Assembly (NCBI GenBank): GCA_900618795.1
Contig: UYJD01000004.1
Span: 1,376,283-1,440,282, forward strand
Direction of reading: 5' to 3'
DNA length: 64,000 bases
Source of the DNA: Cyanodermella asteris
Taxonomy: Eukaryota; Ascomycota; Lecanoromycetes; Ostropales; Stictidaceae
Shown here: positions 25,213-62,527 of the stretch, piece after piece
How positions within the stretch are numbered: the stretch's first letter is position 1
Layout of the letters: the number at the start of each line of letters is the position of its first letter
The notes under the pieces: model-generated
Database searches by the model: none
The model's input: only the letters and a program-made list of their open reading frames with translations
Told to the model about the DNA's origin: nothing
Position numbers and translations under genes: made by a program

Positions 25213-26247
25213 TCAATCAATCTGCTTCTGCTTCGCGTTGTACTTGAGCAGATTCGCAAGCGTCGCGTTCAGCGGACTATGCACCTTGTCAAGCCACTCC
25301 CTCACCGCCGCCGGGTCCTTGCACTGATGGTGCGGCATACCCATACCATCCGTGTCCAGTCTCCCGCCATCCTCTTCCACTTTCGCCCATTCAATGCTGA
25401 GGTCTGCGTTGCACTCGATGGCTTGCACCAGGTATGTGAAGCAGTGAAGCATGTGCCCGCTCTTGACTTGCATCTCGATCAAAGCGTGGAGCTCGGCGGT
25501 GGTGTCTGACTCAGCGGCGTTCACAAGTTTCCAGTACCATCTTCGGATCTCGATCTATGAGGCTGTTAGCTGAACTCGGTTTCCATTACACGTTTGTTCT
25601 TCTTTCCTGCCGGAAGCACGTACCATACAGTGCATTTGGTGGTACATCGACACGCCGAAGCGCCCGATGCCCAGCTCGGGGACGGGGACGCCTGGCTCAA
25701 GATTGTACTCCTCCGGGTCTGCTATTAGGACCCAGCCGTTGTGGTCTGACATTGTCAGCAAAGTGGCTCTTTGAACTGGCCACAGTGCCCTTTTTCTTAC
25801 AGGGAGCAAGTGACTGCCATATCGCATCTGACTCTGGGGAGGCTCTTTCCCATAACTCGGGCCGTTTGCTGAAGCTGACGGTGGTCAGCGGCACTGTTGA
25901 GTACAGTCAGCAGCGATTTCCTTTTCGTCTTGCATCCATTACCGCTGCATACTTGTTGGGGCGAACTCCTTCACACGCAGCTGTTTCGACCCTGCGATTA
26001 TATCGAAGCCCTGAAGGCCGATGACGATGAATGCGCCGCAGAAAGCGCCGATCAAGAGCTGTAATGTTGCCCACGACTTCGACTTGCTAGCATGGCGATA
26101 CGTGTGTGGACTGTCGCTTGTTTCTGATCCACTTTCCTCGTCCTTGATGCATTCCGATGCGCCCAGGGTCCGAGGACTTTCGAGTGCTTGGTATCTTGTG
26201 TCGTGGAAATGAGACGAGGAAAGCAGCCTCCAGCTTCCCCAAGCCAT
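25213..26247 (-). CDS. UstY-family (DUF3328) oxidase-like membrane protein A
   Basis: UstYa-type proteins carry out oxidative cyclisation in fungal RiPP pathways (ustiloxin, asperipin). Four exons are inferred: 26247-25953, 25893-25801, 25745-25624 and 25554-25213 (283 aa), with introns of 59, 55 and 69 nt, all in phase. There is one transmembrane helix at about 59-81 (TLQLLIGAFCGAFIVIGLQGF) after a charged cytosolic tail, giving type II topology. The ectodomain has the family pattern SPESDAIWQSL, WVLIADPEEY and two HxxHC motifs: His165-Cys169 (HQMHC) and His204-Cys208 (HMLHC). The latter is followed by VQAIECNADLSIE. Same orientation as the second UstY gene; likely part of one biosynthetic locus with the precursor at 29100. 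Confidence 0.85.
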
Positions 26248-27419
26248 TCTGACAATGATGTTATTCAGAGAATGAACGAAACGCTGTGACTATGCCTAGC
26301 AAAGACTGTAGCGAAGACGATTGAGACAATGCGGCGGGGACGCTCTTTACTCCCGTTCTCAGAACAGGCTGAGTCCTTTCGAATGACCTGCAACGTCGCG
26401 GAAGACTCCACCGCTCGGACTCGGGCTGTTCTATTATTCCACAGATCCACTTTCAGCCACTTGGAGGATATTTCAGCACGCCAAATTCCAGCTCGGCTGA
26501 ATATCGACAGCTTCAGCTGGCACCGAGTTGCGGCCGAGGTTGCAAAAAGCGGTGTATTGATCGCAAGGTCGTGGTGCAGGAGACTTGCATGAAGGACTAC
26601 ATTTCCCTCAGCTTCGTATACTAGCCAAGCTGAGCGATTGAGCCACCAAGAATCCGCTTATGCGAGTGGCTATTGCACCAGCACGGGTCCAAGACCAATT
26701 CGCGACGCTAGTCAATAGTATAGGCACTTAAGTCGGCGTTTCGCTGATTGCGTGACATGTACAAACATAGCCGAGTGGCAGAACGGGGAGGGGTTCTGCG
26801 GATTTCTGCAGGAGCTCCGCCGAGATCTCGTTGAGGCGGAGGATTTAGCTCTTACATGGCGTGCATCTCGTGGTCTTAGTGAATTACAGCGACATCCATG
26901 ACTAAGAGAGATAGCACAGGGTCCCCCTTAGGGCGGGGCATTGCTTATCAGGCCTGATTAGCGAGCTGAAAGCATTGCGGTGGTAGTCACCTCACTCGCC
27001 ACTCGGGCATTTGTGTTTGGTGGGGCGACGTTGTATGATTGCCGCTTTGGGTTGGAGTCCGCACCTTAGTTAGATATGGGCATTGTTAGTGCGTTTTCGC
27101 CGTTGTATTCCACCCTTGTGAGGGTAAGCACTTGCAGAAAGACCGAGCAGAGGCTCAGAACTCTATCCGCATCGTGGCGCTCAAAGTCATCCTTCAGAAC
27201 TCAAAGACCACCAGATTCAGCCAATCAGAGACCATGCACAGTGACCCACCGATGCGTTCTCCAAGATTCGAGCCGCAAGATCAACATTCAGCCCTGGCTC
27301 GGACCGCTTGCACTATCGCCAGCTGTCAGTGGGGCCCAGGTTGCTGTACGCGACACGGAAAGCGTTTCTTTGAGGATTTCTTAGACTGATTGGTAATGCA
27401 TGTACATTCAAACGATTCC
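26248..27419. other. Spacer between the two UstY genes
   Basis: 1.17 kb without a supportable gene. Frames of up to about 100 codons on both strands lack domains and mutually overlap. The part next to 26248 should be the promoter of UstY gene A. Confidence 0.45.
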
Positions 27420-28485
27420 CTACGGCCCCGGGCCGTAGTTTCCCTTTGGATTTGTGCCCAATGCAATGCTCTCAATGTCCTGCGGCCGCGGATGGATCCT
27501 CGAATCCATGACCAGCTTCCCATTCTCGTCGTAGGGATACGAGATTCCGAGCTCCGGGTGGACGAGAGAGACCTGATCGAACAGCGAAAATGCCCGCTCG
27601 CCCGCCCACGCGTCCAGCTTCTCCCAGTCCACGCATTCGCCGTCGACGCGGAAGTTGCCCCACGGGCGAGCCCAGTTCGAGATCCAGTCGTAAGTGATGA
27701 TTGAAGTGTCCGAGTTGCACATGACGGCAAGGCGGAGGTCTTCGAGACAATGGTCTGTTTTTCGTTTCCGTCAGAACTGCGCCGCGAATCCTCTCCATAT
27801 ACGAGTATGTGCTTACCGAGATGGGTCCACATTGTTTGATCTTCCTCGAGCTCGTAGTAGTCGCGCCAGATCACACGACGGACGCTTTTCTGTTACGCGT
27901 CTTTGTTAGTTTTGCAACTTGGCGCGGGAGGACCCTGGAAGGATACTGACGATGCAATGCAAATGGTGGTGGGCGCTGAGACCGCCAAAGTAGTCGCCGG
28001 AACCGTCTTGGAGCTTGATGGAGGATCGATTGAGCTGTCGGAGAGTGTACTCGTCGATGCGAATATTGGAGTTCTTGAGCAGCTCGCGCCACGCAGCGTC
28101 CCCTTCAGGGGTAGGATAGCCGCTGTAAGGGCTGTTGGTTCCGATATTGTTTGCGGCCTCTTTCCTCTGCCATTCCACAGCTTTCCGTGCTGGCGCTGGT
28201 CAATTGGTCAGCTTTTGTTTTGACAGACGTTCGACGAGTTGTGAAATTGGACCTACTGTAGATCATATCTCTGTGGCAGTTCTGGCCACGCGTGCTGAAG
28301 TAGACTGCGGCAAACGCAACTGTATATGTGGCAAATATGAAGATGTGAATGAGAATTGGCCGCAATCGCTGGAATCGAGACTTCTGCTTGACTTGATCCT
28401 TGAAGTCATCGTAATCGTTGTCCTTTGAAAGTAGAGATTGGGCGCTTCCGTCCTCGCTGATGAGATCCTCTTTGCTCGAGTCCAT
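27420..28485 (-). CDS. UstY-family (DUF3328) oxidase-like membrane protein B
   Basis: This is a second UstY protein. Exons are 28485-28257, 28195-27951, 27889-27817 and 27754-27420 (293 aa); the three introns are 61, 61 and 62 nt with AACTAAC or GCTGACC branch sites and consistent phases. The start MDSSKEDL is chosen because it precedes an acidic tail and the single membrane helix (about 42-62, PILIHIFIFATYTVAFAAVYF). The ectodomain has YTPARKAVEW, a first HxxHC at His153-Cys157 (HHLHC) and a second at His181-Cys185 (HLDHC) that is assembled across the last intron. The following LRLAVMCNSDTSI is the usual continuation. It diverges from the precursor gene, sharing a 614-bp promoter. Confidence 0.88.
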
Positions 28486-29099
28486 GTTGCTTAAGTGAGG
28501 CTGAGAGCATAGAATGGTAAGGAGAGAAGGCGGAATCACGAGAAAGAGGAGGCGAGGACTAAAAGCTGGCCTGGATTTCGAGTAACGGGTGCTGTCCGAG
28601 CTCCGAGTCTGTCACGAAGTTTATCCCATAGTGTGCAAGGGTCATGTGCAGCTGGAGAACTTATGACTTAGCGCTGACCATATTGCCAACATGCATAAAC
28701 CGAACCCCACAAGGACTTGCTAATAGATCCTTCAGCTAAAGCTAGCTGCAAGCTAGTAGTGTAACTCTCCTAGACGTGATGAAGAATACTCACTCAACGA
28801 ATTGTTGACTCACCGCAACGATTCACACGCTCGTGACCCTGGGTATGTTCCATGACCACTGCAATAATGTCGGGTCGTCATTCAGCAAAGTTACGGGCTC
28901 CGCGACAAGCGAGCTCGAGAGGCTCGGACGAGAGCCCGGTCCTGCCGGATCGTGGACTAAGCATTGGAAACGCTTTGAAGCACTCAAGGCGGAGCCAACG
29001 AATATTTAACACTCCTTGAAAGCCACCTTTTTCGTCTCTGTCCATCACTTGCCTTTATCTCGTCAATCTTCAGCCTTTCTTCCAATTTCCTCCTCCAAG
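28486..29099. promoter_or_regulatory. Bidirectional promoter, UstY-B/RiPP precursor
   Basis: This 614-bp region separates the start codons of UstY-B (minus) and the repeat precursor (plus), which suggests coordinated expression. A TATA-like AATATTTAAC lies at about 29001-29010, 90-100 bp before the precursor ATG. The operator is unknown. Confidence 0.5.
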
Positions 29100-29423
29100 A
29101 TGCAGATCCGAGCTCTTCTCCTTCTACTGCCAGTTCTGGCTGCTGCGGCTCCGTTGGTGTCGAGAGGCACTGACGAGGATCTCGCCAAGTTCGGTCGCCG
29201 CGAGACTGATGAGGATCTTGCTAAATTCGGCCGTCGCGAGACTGACGAGGACCTTGCTAAGTTTGGCCGCCGTGAGACTGACGAGGACCTTGCCAAGTTC
29301 GGACGTCGTGAAACCGATGAGGACCTGGCTAAGTTTGGTCGCCGCGAGACTGACGAGGACCTGGCAAAGTTCGGACGTCGTGAAACCGATGAGGATCTCG
29401 CCAAGTTCGGTCGCCGTGTCTAA
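29100..29423 (+). CDS. Secreted Kex2-processed repeat peptide precursor, probable dikaritin-type RiPP precursor
   Basis: This 107-aa protein has a 17-18-residue signal peptide (MQIRALLLLLPVLAAAA), a five- to six-residue linker and seven exactly repeated dodecapeptides TDEDLAKFGRRE, the last ending in Val. Each repeat holds an Arg-Arg Kex2 site. Processing would therefore release copies of a ten-residue peptide ETDEDLAKFG (first copy GTDEDLAKFG) after trimming of the basic pair. This layout is that of fungal KEP proteins and of dikaritin precursors, and two UstY genes adjoin it, so a modified cyclic peptide is the preferred reading. The ATG at 29100 is the first in frame. There is no Cys or Tyr. 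An alternative is a secreted unmodified signalling peptide; it does not resemble an alpha-type mating pheromone. The product and any activity are unknown. Confidence 0.85.
   Translation: MQIRALLLLLPVLAAAAPLVSRGTDEDLAKFGRRETDEDLAKFGRRETDEDLAKFGRRETDEDLAKFGRRETDEDLAKFGRRETDEDLAKFGRRETDEDLAKFGRRV
29169..29420 (+). repeat. Seven tandem 36-bp coding repeats
   Basis: There are seven consecutive 36-bp units inside the precursor gene. All encode the same 11 residues TDEDLAKFGRR, with Glu as the twelfth in six copies. The units differ from each other at many third codon positions (for example Leu as CTC, CTT or CTG; Gly as GGT, GGC or GGA). Confidence 0.95.
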
Positions 29424-49189: not shown

Positions 49190-50290
49190 ATGGCATGGAG
49201 TGACTGATGCGAAGTCGATCATTCTTGTCATCACCGTCAAAGCAACTTGGTCAGATTTGAGGATTCAGCCGATGGTTTCCACCGACACCGGTGATCTTCA
49301 TCAGCAATGTGAACAGTCACAGGGTGCGCGATAGCAATTGCAGGACGCACTCTATGTGCCTATCAAGTCAATGCCTACTCCAGCGCTCACATCAGCACTC
49401 TGTTACGGAGGACAAACAATGGTAAGCCAGAGGTTTGTGAAAATGCTGTGCCATACAGCGAATTCGAAACGAGGTAGATTGGTAAGTTTGTTTCTTGACT
49501 AAGGCGCTGGCTTGCCTCAAGCTCTTGAGCCTCGCTGATGTAAACCATCATCGCGCCCGTCAAATCATGATTGGTAAACATCGAGCACTGTAGTCCTCCA
49601 CAATCAGATTTTCAAGTTGCCAGGATGAAAGTGGGGTGGTGATGCTGAATGTGCTAGCATCACCGGTGCCAGGGGGCGCGAACAGGGGACGGAGGACCTG
49701 TTCGCCCGCCCTGCCCGCTAGAGCTGTCTCTGAAAGCAGGTGGACATTCAGCTAAAGTCCGCTGTTCCCGGTGACCTCAACGCGGTCGGCCGCATATCGA
49801 GGCCGTGCATGGCCGTGTCCTCACGCAAAATGAGGCTCAAGCTCCGCAAGCGGAGCATCTTCCGAAGACCTGCCGGGATTGAGTTTTGTATGACATCGCA
49901 GGCTCGCCTATGCTTGGATGACGCCACTTAACCTGCCGTCCGTCAAACAAATCGAACGTTGCAAATGATGAAGCTTCCCAAGCAACCAATTGTTGCCAAC
50001 GAACGTGCTTAATCATGCTCGAGCTCAGCAATTTTCACAATGACAAAATGCGACCTCTTGGAAAAGACGTCAATCGTGCTCGTCAATCGTGCTCGTCAAT
50101 CGTGCTTCCGAACGGTTTGGCTTGCCACCCTGGTCAAAGGTCGGGATCCCACTGATAAATAGGTAGCTTAGTCCGCCTGACGTGGGACTATGGAAATTCT
50201 CCAAGTTCCCGTTCAGTGTCTGCTCTGTTCTTAAGCCTCCTCGATACCTTTACCATCACTCAATTGAAGGCCCAGTGTGACTATACAACC
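49190..50290. other. Intergenic region with a 13-bp triple repeat
   Basis: 1.1 kb upstream of the MDR oxidoreductase gene. No gene was found. The region contains three perfect copies of CGTCAATCGTGCT about 185 bp before that gene's ATG. Confidence 0.5.
50068..50106. repeat. Three tandem copies of CGTCAATCGTGCT
   Basis: Perfect 13-bp direct repeats at 50068-50080, 50081-50093 and 50094-50106 in the promoter region of the MDR gene. They could be binding sites or a simple expansion. Confidence 0.85.
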
Positions 50291-59990: not shown

Positions 59991-61907
59991 TCAGACAATG
60001 GCGAAGTCTCCATAGATACAACTCACGCCTGAGTTCCAACGTTCCGCTGGAGTCCAGTATTCAAAATTTGTCCGTTGAATGTCCTGGACCACCTCGCGTA
60101 TGGTCGAGCCTGATAACATTCCTAGAAAGATGAACCTGCCCATTGACGAAGTATCTCTTCCACTACGAGCGTGGCCGTCTGGCCCATCATAGGATACTGG
60201 CCGGAGCACGACGACAGACGGACTGCCAAACAGCCAGACAGCCCAGTCGCCGACACGTGCGCGAAGGTAGACTCCGAACACAGGGGTCTCTGGAACATTA
60301 GTAGATGGGATGCTCAAATCAAACTGGTTCTGAACATCTGGAGCATCCAGATCATTGAGCAGAGCGTTAATATCAGACTTCAAAGGCCTAGATAAATCTT
60401 CCATGGAATATTGTACTCCATCATGTCTATCGGGGAGAGCACTCTCGAAAAACGCTTGGACTCGAAAAAACTCGCCTCCGCCACGTAAACGACCAAGGGC
60501 AACACCAGATGCGATGAGTGTATCGCCTTGAAATGAGACGGGCAGCTCGAGACTCAACGCACTGGTGGGCATGGCTGTCGCGTTCCGCTCTCGAAGGATG
60601 TTAGCAGAAAGATTATCAACGATAGCTGTCCAGTCCGGAACCCAGGATGGTAGCGATATTTCAGCTGTATCCGACCGTGGTGTGACAACGACCTTTCGAA
60701 TTCGGTCGCTGTCAGTTCCAAATCTTCCAGCTTGAAGACGATCCACACCACAATACCGGAAGATTTCCAAGCTCCGGTCCTGGCGGATACATGCTTGCGC
60801 GGCTTGCACAAGTACGGCCTTCGTCGACAGCGTGTAATCGGGCTTGATGAGTTCACCCGCGTTTGTGAGTCCAAGTACGGCGAAAACTTTGTCCCGAGCG
60901 TCCGTGGAGTTTCGGCCCCAGATTGACAGAAGTGCATCGAGAAGACGCTGGCTCTCTTGCTGGGGCCTGGTTATGTTTCGCAGTTTTGAACGCATTGAAT
61001 CTATTCTGCTGATTTCTGAGGCCAGCAGCTCCAGTCCACCAAAGAGCTTGTACCAAAGCCTGCGCTTCTCCACCGAGTCGCCAATCCCGAGCGGCCCGAG
61101 CAGCAATGCGAAATGGTCAAAATCGATCTGATGGCGGCCATACATGAGCACAACCTTACGAGCGAGGACAACCTCCTGGTAAGTCCATGCTCTGGTGAAG
61201 TATCCCGAAGCCTGCATTTTCAGGAAGCAATCCGACCATGAGCTCTTAAGCCGTGCTGCCAACGGGCGTGTTTGGGCAAAACGCAGAGAGGCCAAGTATC
61301 CGAGTTCCCGCCAGACTTCTCCCATGCGCGGAACGTCCTTATAATCGCCTGCACCAAGCCAGGAAATGACGAGCTTTGCCTCTGAGTAAATCTCCGTCAC
61401 GAGACCCACCTGAGCCGCTTTCTCGGTTTCGTTCGACTGGTCAATACAGAGCGAATCTACCCAAAGGTACCTTGGGAGCTGATTTCGGATACTCAATAGC
61501 TGGCGAAGGGCGTCGTGTAAATTTGGTGTAATTGACTTGTCCATCCTCGCCCGATACTCACCTGTCAAAGGGTCGACCGTAGTAAGAAACATGCGATTGT
61601 CTATCCCAGCAGTTCTACCTGCACTGGAGCCCCAAACGTAGGACAATGCCACGAAGTCGTACCCTTTCCTGACATGACTTAGTGGGATTAGTTTGATAGT
61701 AGCGTCCAAAATTCCCTTCTCTATGATGCCATCGACCCCATGCACAGGAGCATAGCCGTTGAGTCGAAGAAGCCTTATATGGCGCTTTGGAAGTCGTGGA
61801 TATACCAGCTTGGGGTCTGTCGAGGCGCCCCAGAAACCCTTCCTCTCATTTTGACCCGATTGCTGCCATGGCTTGAGGTTCAAGAACTCGTGAACGGACG
61901 CATCCAT
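59991..61907 (-). CDS. HET-domain (heterokaryon incompatibility) protein
   Basis: This is a 638-aa single-exon HET protein, a class tied to allorecognition and programmed cell death in filamentous ascomycetes. The HET core spans about 80-250: YDFVALSYVWGSS, RYLWVDSLCIDQSNETEKAAQVGLVTEIY split over conserved blocks, AKLVISWLGAGD and FTRAWTYQEVVLARK. The C-terminal half (ARDKVFAVLGLTNAGE; LPSWVPDWTA) is the usual extension. The frame is open to 61985 without an earlier ATG, so 61907 (MDASVHEF) is used; a short upstream exon is possible. No STAND ATPase or repeat domain follows. It overlaps nothing and ends 26 bp from the paralogue remnant. Confidence 0.9.
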   Translation of the reverse strand: MDASVHEFLNLKPWQQSGQNERKGFWGASTDPKLVYPRLPKRHIRLLRLNGYAPVHGVDGIIEKGILDATIKLIPLSHVRKGYDFVALSYVWGSSAGRTAGIDNRMFLTTVDPLTGEYRARMDKSITPNLHDALRQLLSIRNQLPRYLWVDSLCIDQSNETEKAAQVGLVTEIYSEAKLVISWLGAGDYKDVPRMGEVWRELGYLASLRFAQTRPLAARLKSSWSDCFLKMQASGYFTRAWTYQEVVLARKVVLMYGRHQIDFDHFALLLGPLGIGDSVEKRRLWYKLFGGLELLASEISRIDSMRSKLRNITRPQQESQRLLDALLSIWGRNSTDARDKVFAVLGLTNAGELIKPDYTLSTKAVLVQAAQACIRQDRSLEIFRYCGVDRLQAGRFGTDSDRIRKVVVTPRSDTAEISLPSWVPDWTAIVDNLSANILRERNATAMPTSALSLELPVSFQGDTLIASGVALGRLRGGGEFFRVQAFFESALPDRHDGVQYSMEDLSRPLKSDINALLNDLDAPDVQNQFDLSIPSTNVPETPVFGVYLRARVGDWAVWLFGSPSVVVLRPVSYDGPDGHARSGRDTSSMGRFIFLGMLSGSTIREVVQDIQRTNFEYWTPAERWNSGVSCIYGDFAIV

Positions 61908-62527
61908 GTCATGTAGCGCTCTGCACACAAGTGGATCGCGTGGAATGGAAGTGGCAGCACCTTCGTGTTCCACAGGACACGTCAAAGAGAGACTGTTTCG
62001 CCGCCGTTCAAGGTATTTCGCGAGACAGATTGTTCGTTACTGAAAGTGAAGCACCCAAAACGACGCTGAAGCGACGGATTGATAAGCTTTCGGGCTGTAG
62101 GGAAATGCAGGCTCTACTTCGACGTTAATCGAGCCACGCCGCACTTGTGTGGTGCACTGCTCAGCAGTACGTAGACCTGGACAACACCATATTGAACGGC
62201 GAACGCGTGCCGTTGTGTATCCCAGACTGCGACAGTCCTTTGCGCTGACTCTGGCAGTCTAGCAGGGTTTCCAAGCTTGGTCAATGATCGCAACGGCAAG
62301 TCATCTGATTGGTGAGATCTCGAGACGATCCCGCTCTCGACCATGACGCACGAACGGAGCTTGACGAACTCATCGGCCCAGAACATCGTTGTGAGGAGAT
62401 GTCATATCTCCATGCACGTTTGTATTTATCTCTTTGATCATGCTCCTGTCAATACACGCCGCAAGAACTATCTCTATCGATCCTTCTGCTGTAATCTCAT
62501 CTTCGCCGCAGTAGATACTTCTCCGCC
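61908..62527. promoter_or_regulatory. Divergent promoter region HET gene/AhpC-like gene
   Basis: This 620-bp head-to-head spacer holds no gene. I recognised no element. Confidence 0.4.

Follow-up and report, generated by a model that had tools for sequence, protein, structure and literature searches.

Dikaritins are fungal ribosomally synthesized and post-translationally modified peptides (RiPPs), of which only five had been reported by 2022 (PMC10512285). The original definition by Ding et al. comprises five genes, for a tyrosinase, a methyltransferase, a transporter/peptidase, a precursor and multiple DUF3328 proteins (PMC12048977), and the later one a Kex2-processed repeat protein (KEP) as precursor together with a UstYa homologue (PMC10512285, PMC12048977). 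UstY enzymes are described as having a dicopper site and performing O2-dependent crosslinking, in asperipin-2a as an ether from the Tyr oxygen to the Phe C-beta (PMC12186524), and three DUF3328 proteins of the phomopsin pathway are reported to produce dehydroamino acids (PMC10880069). The victorin ring joins a C-terminal Phe to an internal Leu, without Tyr (PMC9233826). Here we describe a gene trio from Cyanodermella asteris, located at positions 25213–29423 of a 64,000-nucleotide stretch of contig UYJD01000004.1 (hereafter the window), in which two UstYa-family (PF11807) genes, UstYa-A and UstYa-B, and one precursor gene together span about 4.2 kb. We regard the trio as a putative dikaritin-type RiPP locus with a Tyr-free core and as a previously uncharacterised instance of an established fungal route to small bioactive peptides; the probability that the released peptide is oxidised by at least UstYa-B is, in our estimate, about 0.82.

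The precursor gene (29100–29423, plus strand) encodes a Kex2-type repeat protein of 107 residues. Residues 1–24 are hydrophobic and signal-like as judged by Kyte–Doolittle hydropathy alone, and the remainder is dominated by seven TDEDLAKFGRR units, the first preceded by Gly and the other six by Glu, with Val as the C-terminal residue of the chain. Arg-Arg is present in 7/7 units; Glu-Asp and Phe occur in each and Tyr in none. The underlying array (29169–29417, plus strand) has seven copies with a period of 36 bases, which differ only synonymously within TDEDLAKFGRR: counted as the minimum from the distinct codons per column, 13 or more silent substitutions separate the copies, and none of the residues is altered. 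The expected synonymous share of random changes is 23.5%, or 28.9% with transitions favoured, and the chance of a silent-only pattern is ~7e-9 to 1e-7 if the changes are taken as independent. Silent positions of the array have drifted while the peptide was held constant, and the contrast between the two kinds of change argues that the peptide is under selection.

The link between this peptide and an oxidase comes from a paralogous locus elsewhere in the genome. Within the searched assembly (28.5 Mb, 25 contigs), the sole strong other match to the precursor lies at 76423–76764 of contig C5 (51% identity, E 8.5e-15; the next match has E 0.0022), and the best other gene for UstYa-B (27420–28485, minus strand) is found on the same contig at C5:74551–75402 (56% identity, E 6.7e-114; the next gene reaches 30%, E 1.5e-15). 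The C5 precursor paralog (L018:424–849, equal to C5:76423–76848) has 141 residues, a signal-like start and nine TLNEDAVKFAGR units, which require a minimum of 20 silent and 4 amino-acid substitutions; two of the amino-acid substitutions fall on the junction residue. Its coding region and that of the C5 UstYa are 1008 bases (~1 kb) apart. In a phylogenetic tree that covers 22 loci with 34 UstYa rows and 175 columns, from which 2 of 36 chained gene pieces were excluded for having under 90 columns, UstYa-B and the C5 UstYa are sisters with a support of 100/98. Since the paralogs of precursor and UstYa-B stand side by side, they are most simply explained by joint duplication, and this apparent co-duplication is the strongest evidence that the two act together. 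Exact words shared by the intergenic regions of the trio and of the C5 locus do not exceed 10 bases, and the genome-wide profile search gave no second PF11807 match on C5. Because the C5 locus pairs a precursor with a B-type UstYa and has no other PF11807 gene, UstYa-B would be the firm partner of the precursor and UstYa-A a possible add-on. The original prediction had coupled the precursor to both UstY genes; co-occurrence within this genome bears this out for UstYa-B, through the C5 pair, and not for UstYa-A.

Compared with the described systems, the trio has the features of the later dikaritin definition: an N-terminal ER signal (by hydropathy alone), Kex2-spaced repeat cores and adjoining UstYa genes with two HxxHC motifs each. 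It lacks the full set of five genes in the original one. None of the eight tyrosinase matches in the genome is on the contig of the trio, and only one of the five S41 peptidase matches is, ~390 kb off. A methyltransferase, a P450 and an amine oxidase did not turn up in the scanned frames of the window, no genome-wide search having been made for these. The earlier statement that tailoring genes are missing nearby therefore stands for tyrosinase and S41 peptidase, and for methyltransferase and amine oxidase within the scanned frames. One proprotein-convertase P-domain (P_proprotein) match in the genome represents the expected Kex2.

The ustiloxin B system (UstA, UstYa, UstYb) resembles the trio in its signal-like leader, its many repeats, its two UstY genes and its core, YAIG, which ends in Gly and lies between ED and the dibasic KR (PMC6514808). 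It differs by the Tyr in this core, by its tyrosinase UstQ and by further tailoring genes, whereas the trio has neither a tyrosinase nor an S41 peptidase nearby. Ustiloxin and phomopsin repeats are reported to have EDYxI in common (PMC6339444); the trio has neither this motif nor a core Tyr, the Tyr being found in a foreign relative, P0002 (see below). Asperipin-2a (AprA, AprY) is described as the product of a four-gene cluster that, like the trio, has no tyrosinase (PMC6514808), but that cluster has one UstY gene, a reductase and a transporter, and its core FYYTGY is Tyr-rich, while the trio has two UstY genes and no Tyr. The Leu and Phe of the victorin ring are also present in the trio peptide; victorin differs in being chlorinated and in requiring further processing (PMC9233826), and this comparison is one of peptides.

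In the pathway that we propose, the precursor would enter the secretory pathway and Kex2 would cut after each Arg-Arg, trimming of the basic residues leaving decapeptides [E/G]TDEDLAKFG. Membrane-anchored UstYa-B, a predicted copper oxidase in which the two HxxHC motifs probably bind the metal, would then oxidise the peptide, and UstYa-A, which belongs to a different UstYa clade, would perform a second oxidation. By analogy with ustiloxin, whose cores stand between ED and KR, the ED before and the RR after LAKFG suggest that LAKFG may be the core, which would then be shorter than ETDEDLAKFG, and that TDED may serve for recognition. The notion of a locus for a modified, multi-copy ETDEDLAKFG peptide thus holds as regards a repeat precursor accompanied by UstYa genes, with UstYa-B coupled to it by co-duplication, and may need narrowing as regards the extent of the core. 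As this core lacks Tyr, the likeliest changes would be at Phe or its neighbours, either a crosslink from the Leu or Lys side chain to Phe or a desaturation, each at the cost of 2 H. By analogy with the Phe–Leu closure of victorin and the desaturation in phomopsin, a UstY acting on LAKFG could do either. A more far-reaching proposal, to which we give clearly less than even odds, is that the trio represents a Tyr-free group of dikaritins that needs neither a tyrosinase nor tailoring genes: its two UstY oxidases, which come from different clades, would act one after the other on LAKFG, either joining Leu/Lys to Phe or desaturating these residues, and at C5 the cutting would have diverged while oxidation was kept. 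The small locus, its one perfectly repeated peptide and a natural paralogous counterpart with a different core and junction make the trio a convenient test of UstY action on a Tyr-free core and of the division of work in UstY pairs.

Relatives of the precursor are few. In a collection of 5.8 billion proteins, the precursor was scored against the 8000 candidates sharing most words with it, and two relatives, P0001 and P0002, were found among these. P0001 has a signal similar to that of the trio precursor (MQIRTLLLLLPAIAAAAPLV) and the unit GTDEDLAKFGRR, with an identical core; in P0002, DLAKYG occurs four times, with KR after three of the units and RS after the remaining one. All four precursors contain D-x-x-K-[F/Y] followed by Gly after at most one further residue, so that Phe and Tyr interchange in an otherwise constant pattern. 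A single DLAKYG-coding match was also seen in the C. asteris genome, at C13:1145042. UstYa-B has ten relatives in the collection, including proteins from Penicillium expansum, Ophiocordyceps, Amylocarpus and Botrytis/Botryotinia species, and UstYa-A one partial protein. Neither DLAKFG nor DLAKYG was found in the literature text searched, supplementary tables lying outside this search, and EDLAKF/EDLAKY matched only in three papers, unrelated by title. Weak Pfam matches of both precursors (CagA mimic, Egg_lysin, CENP-S, PCF11 repeat) fell below the cut-off and were taken as chance.

The PF11807 profile search of the genome gave 68 exon matches, 56 of which were grouped into 34 loci; the 12 weakest were excluded, all lying inside counted loci by their coordinates. 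In a repeat survey of 22 of these 34 loci, ten have a tandem-repeat open frame 0.8–2.5 kb from a UstYa match: the trio, C5 (L018), L022, L023, L024, L027, L033, L034, L036 and L038. KR or RR stands between the units at the eight loci besides the trio and C5, where the cores are others, such as DAEAVAYPDAYKR, DVDAIRDVFVADTKR and SQSVDETNNQAGWGKR. Five of the ten (the trio, C5, L027, L033 and L036) have Tyr-free units. The repeat filter demanded dibasic sites, and C5, which has none, was kept by name; a scan without this filter at a higher score cut-off returned the same ten loci and L021, whose repeat was judged a low-complexity frame and was not counted. A reversed-sequence control is uninformative here because a reversed repeat is still a repeat. 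The background is thin: the 64-kb window gave no repeat frame besides that of the trio, L019 gave none, and L020, a region picked through a weak precursor match, gave one. Elsewhere, 1758 of 7878 KEPs are reported to have a DUF3328 gene within 15 genes (PMC7329392), and nine putative dikaritin clusters of UstY genes plus repeats are described in the Venturia inaequalis genome (PMC9632046). With a repeat precursor at 10/22 UstYa loci and 1758 DUF3328-linked KEPs in print, the trio type is not rare. In L034 an in-frame stop interrupts the DAEAVAYPDAYKR array (L034:6637–7059), which may mean that the repeats contain an intron.

Several observations weigh against oxidation of a Kex2-released peptide as we propose it. 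The C5 paralog joins its units by a single Arg (FAGR-S/G) and has no dibasic sites, and one of the four P0002 junctions is GRS, not dibasic; judged from these junctions, cutting by Kex2 is a feature of only part of the precursor family. No counterpart of UstYa-A was found beside the C5 precursor. Among DUF3328-linked KEP repeats, 65.6% are reported to contain Tyr (PMC7329392), and the trio core has none. Finally, a repeat precursor went undetected at 12 of the 22 loci, by a single-frame detector from which introns may hide some.

The explanation that survives best besides the two-oxidase pathway is nested within oxidation by at least UstYa-B: UstYa-B alone would modify the peptide, in a one-UstY system like that of asperipin AprY, and UstYa-A (25213–26247, minus strand) would serve another pathway. 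We consider this possible, at well under one chance in two. It agrees with the C5 copy, which consists of a precursor and a single PF11807 gene, and with the distance of UstYa-A, whose best other match in the genome has 37% identity and whose PF11807 match is partial (positions 68–218 of 220). However, the UstYa-A frame is intact with both HxxHC motifs present, and its relatives resemble members of working pairs. Seven rows, UstYa-A among them, form a clade (support 95/90.9), and a constraint uniting UstYa-A with UstYa-B and the C5 sister was rejected (AU p 0.0036), the groups for this test having been named after a first quick tree was viewed. Among the rows treed, six of the seven clade genes share their locus with a UstYa from outside the clade (the window, L021, L023, L026, L029 and L034; the exception is L035), and UstYa-A and UstYa-B can be read as one case of a recurring two-class pair. 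The split into two classes rests on long branches and 175 columns, and we treat it as a lead and not as a settled classification. The UstYa pairs of L029 (C19:261k) and L034 (C3:849k) are each oppositely oriented and their members are pairwise sisters (99/75 and 99/98), perhaps representing another co-duplicated pair.

It is improbable that the precursor yields an unmodified secreted signalling peptide of the alpha-pheromone kind and that its UstYa neighbours have another substrate. Such a role would suit the absence of Tyr from the core, the report that 78% of KEPs lack a DUF3328 gene at a distance of up to 15 genes (PMC7329392) and L020, which carries another dibasic repeat frame with no UstYa match nearby in the genome-wide profile search (L020:4567–4908, alanine/arginine-rich, 12-residue period, RR). 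The paralogs of precursor and UstYa-B likewise adjoin, however, and DUF3328 is reported almost never to accompany pheromone-type KEPs (PMC7329392); no pheromone family is among the Pfam matches at E 0.01, and with two adjoining UstYa genes the locus departs from the alpha-pheromone type. That the repeat protein stays uncut as a structural or effector-like secreted protein with incidental RR is more improbable still: the C5 paralog does retain repeats without dibasic sites, but RR occurs in every trio unit, KR in 3/4 P0002 units and KR/RR-spaced repeats near UstYa at eight other loci of the genome.

The gene structures of UstYa-A and UstYa-B are predictions from splicing of the genomic sequence alone. 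Both consist of four exons (UstYa-A: 26247–25953, 25893–25801, 25745–25624 and 25554–25213, encoding 283 residues; UstYa-B: 28485–28257, 28195–27951, 27889–27817 and 27754–27420, encoding 293 residues), separated by three introns of 55–69 bases with GT...AG borders. Their PF11807 matches have E 1.1e-21 (UstYa-A) and 3.7e-47 (UstYa-B). The HxxHC motifs are HQMHC and HMLHC in UstYa-A and HHLHC and HLDHC in UstYa-B, where the third intron splits HLDHC. Each protein has, in its N-terminal part, a single stretch that is hydrophobic enough for a membrane helix (Kyte–Doolittle; residues 58–87 in UstYa-A and 41–64 in UstYa-B). Profile matches, motifs and hydropathy agree with the original prediction of two DUF3328/UstY genes with one membrane helix and two HxxHC motifs each, and its 107-residue precursor with seven RR-separated repeats is confirmed; its coordinates are exact. 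Solved structures gave no match for either UstYa protein at E 1; a profile of alignment A1, for a UstYa-B relative, gave one match only, at E 0.7, which was regarded as chance. UstYa-B and the precursor gene are divergently transcribed from an intergenic region of 614 bases (28486–29099).

To the left of the trio lie a frame with a DCAF4-propeller match below the cut-off and a MIOS-type protein. To the right, no Pfam match was obtained in 10 scanned open frames at 29.4–34.9 kb; further right follow a bZIP gene (31.9–32.6 kb) and then an amino-acid permease, a Zn-cluster regulator, a Rieske oxygenase and others. The permease, from 36424 on (36.4–37.9 kb), is the nearest transporter among the scanned frames, and the only dehydrogenase-type match among them begins at 50159. 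At two UstYa loci elsewhere in the genome, where the single-frame detector gave no repeat precursor, an S41 peptidase match lies close to the UstYa gene as in ustiloxin/phomopsin-like clusters: ~2 kb apart in L032 (UstYa C15:361891, peptidase C15:364177) and ~6 kb apart in L035 (UstYa C12:849528, peptidase C12:856141). The window also encodes a HET (heterokaryon incompatibility) domain protein at 59994–62036 on the minus strand.

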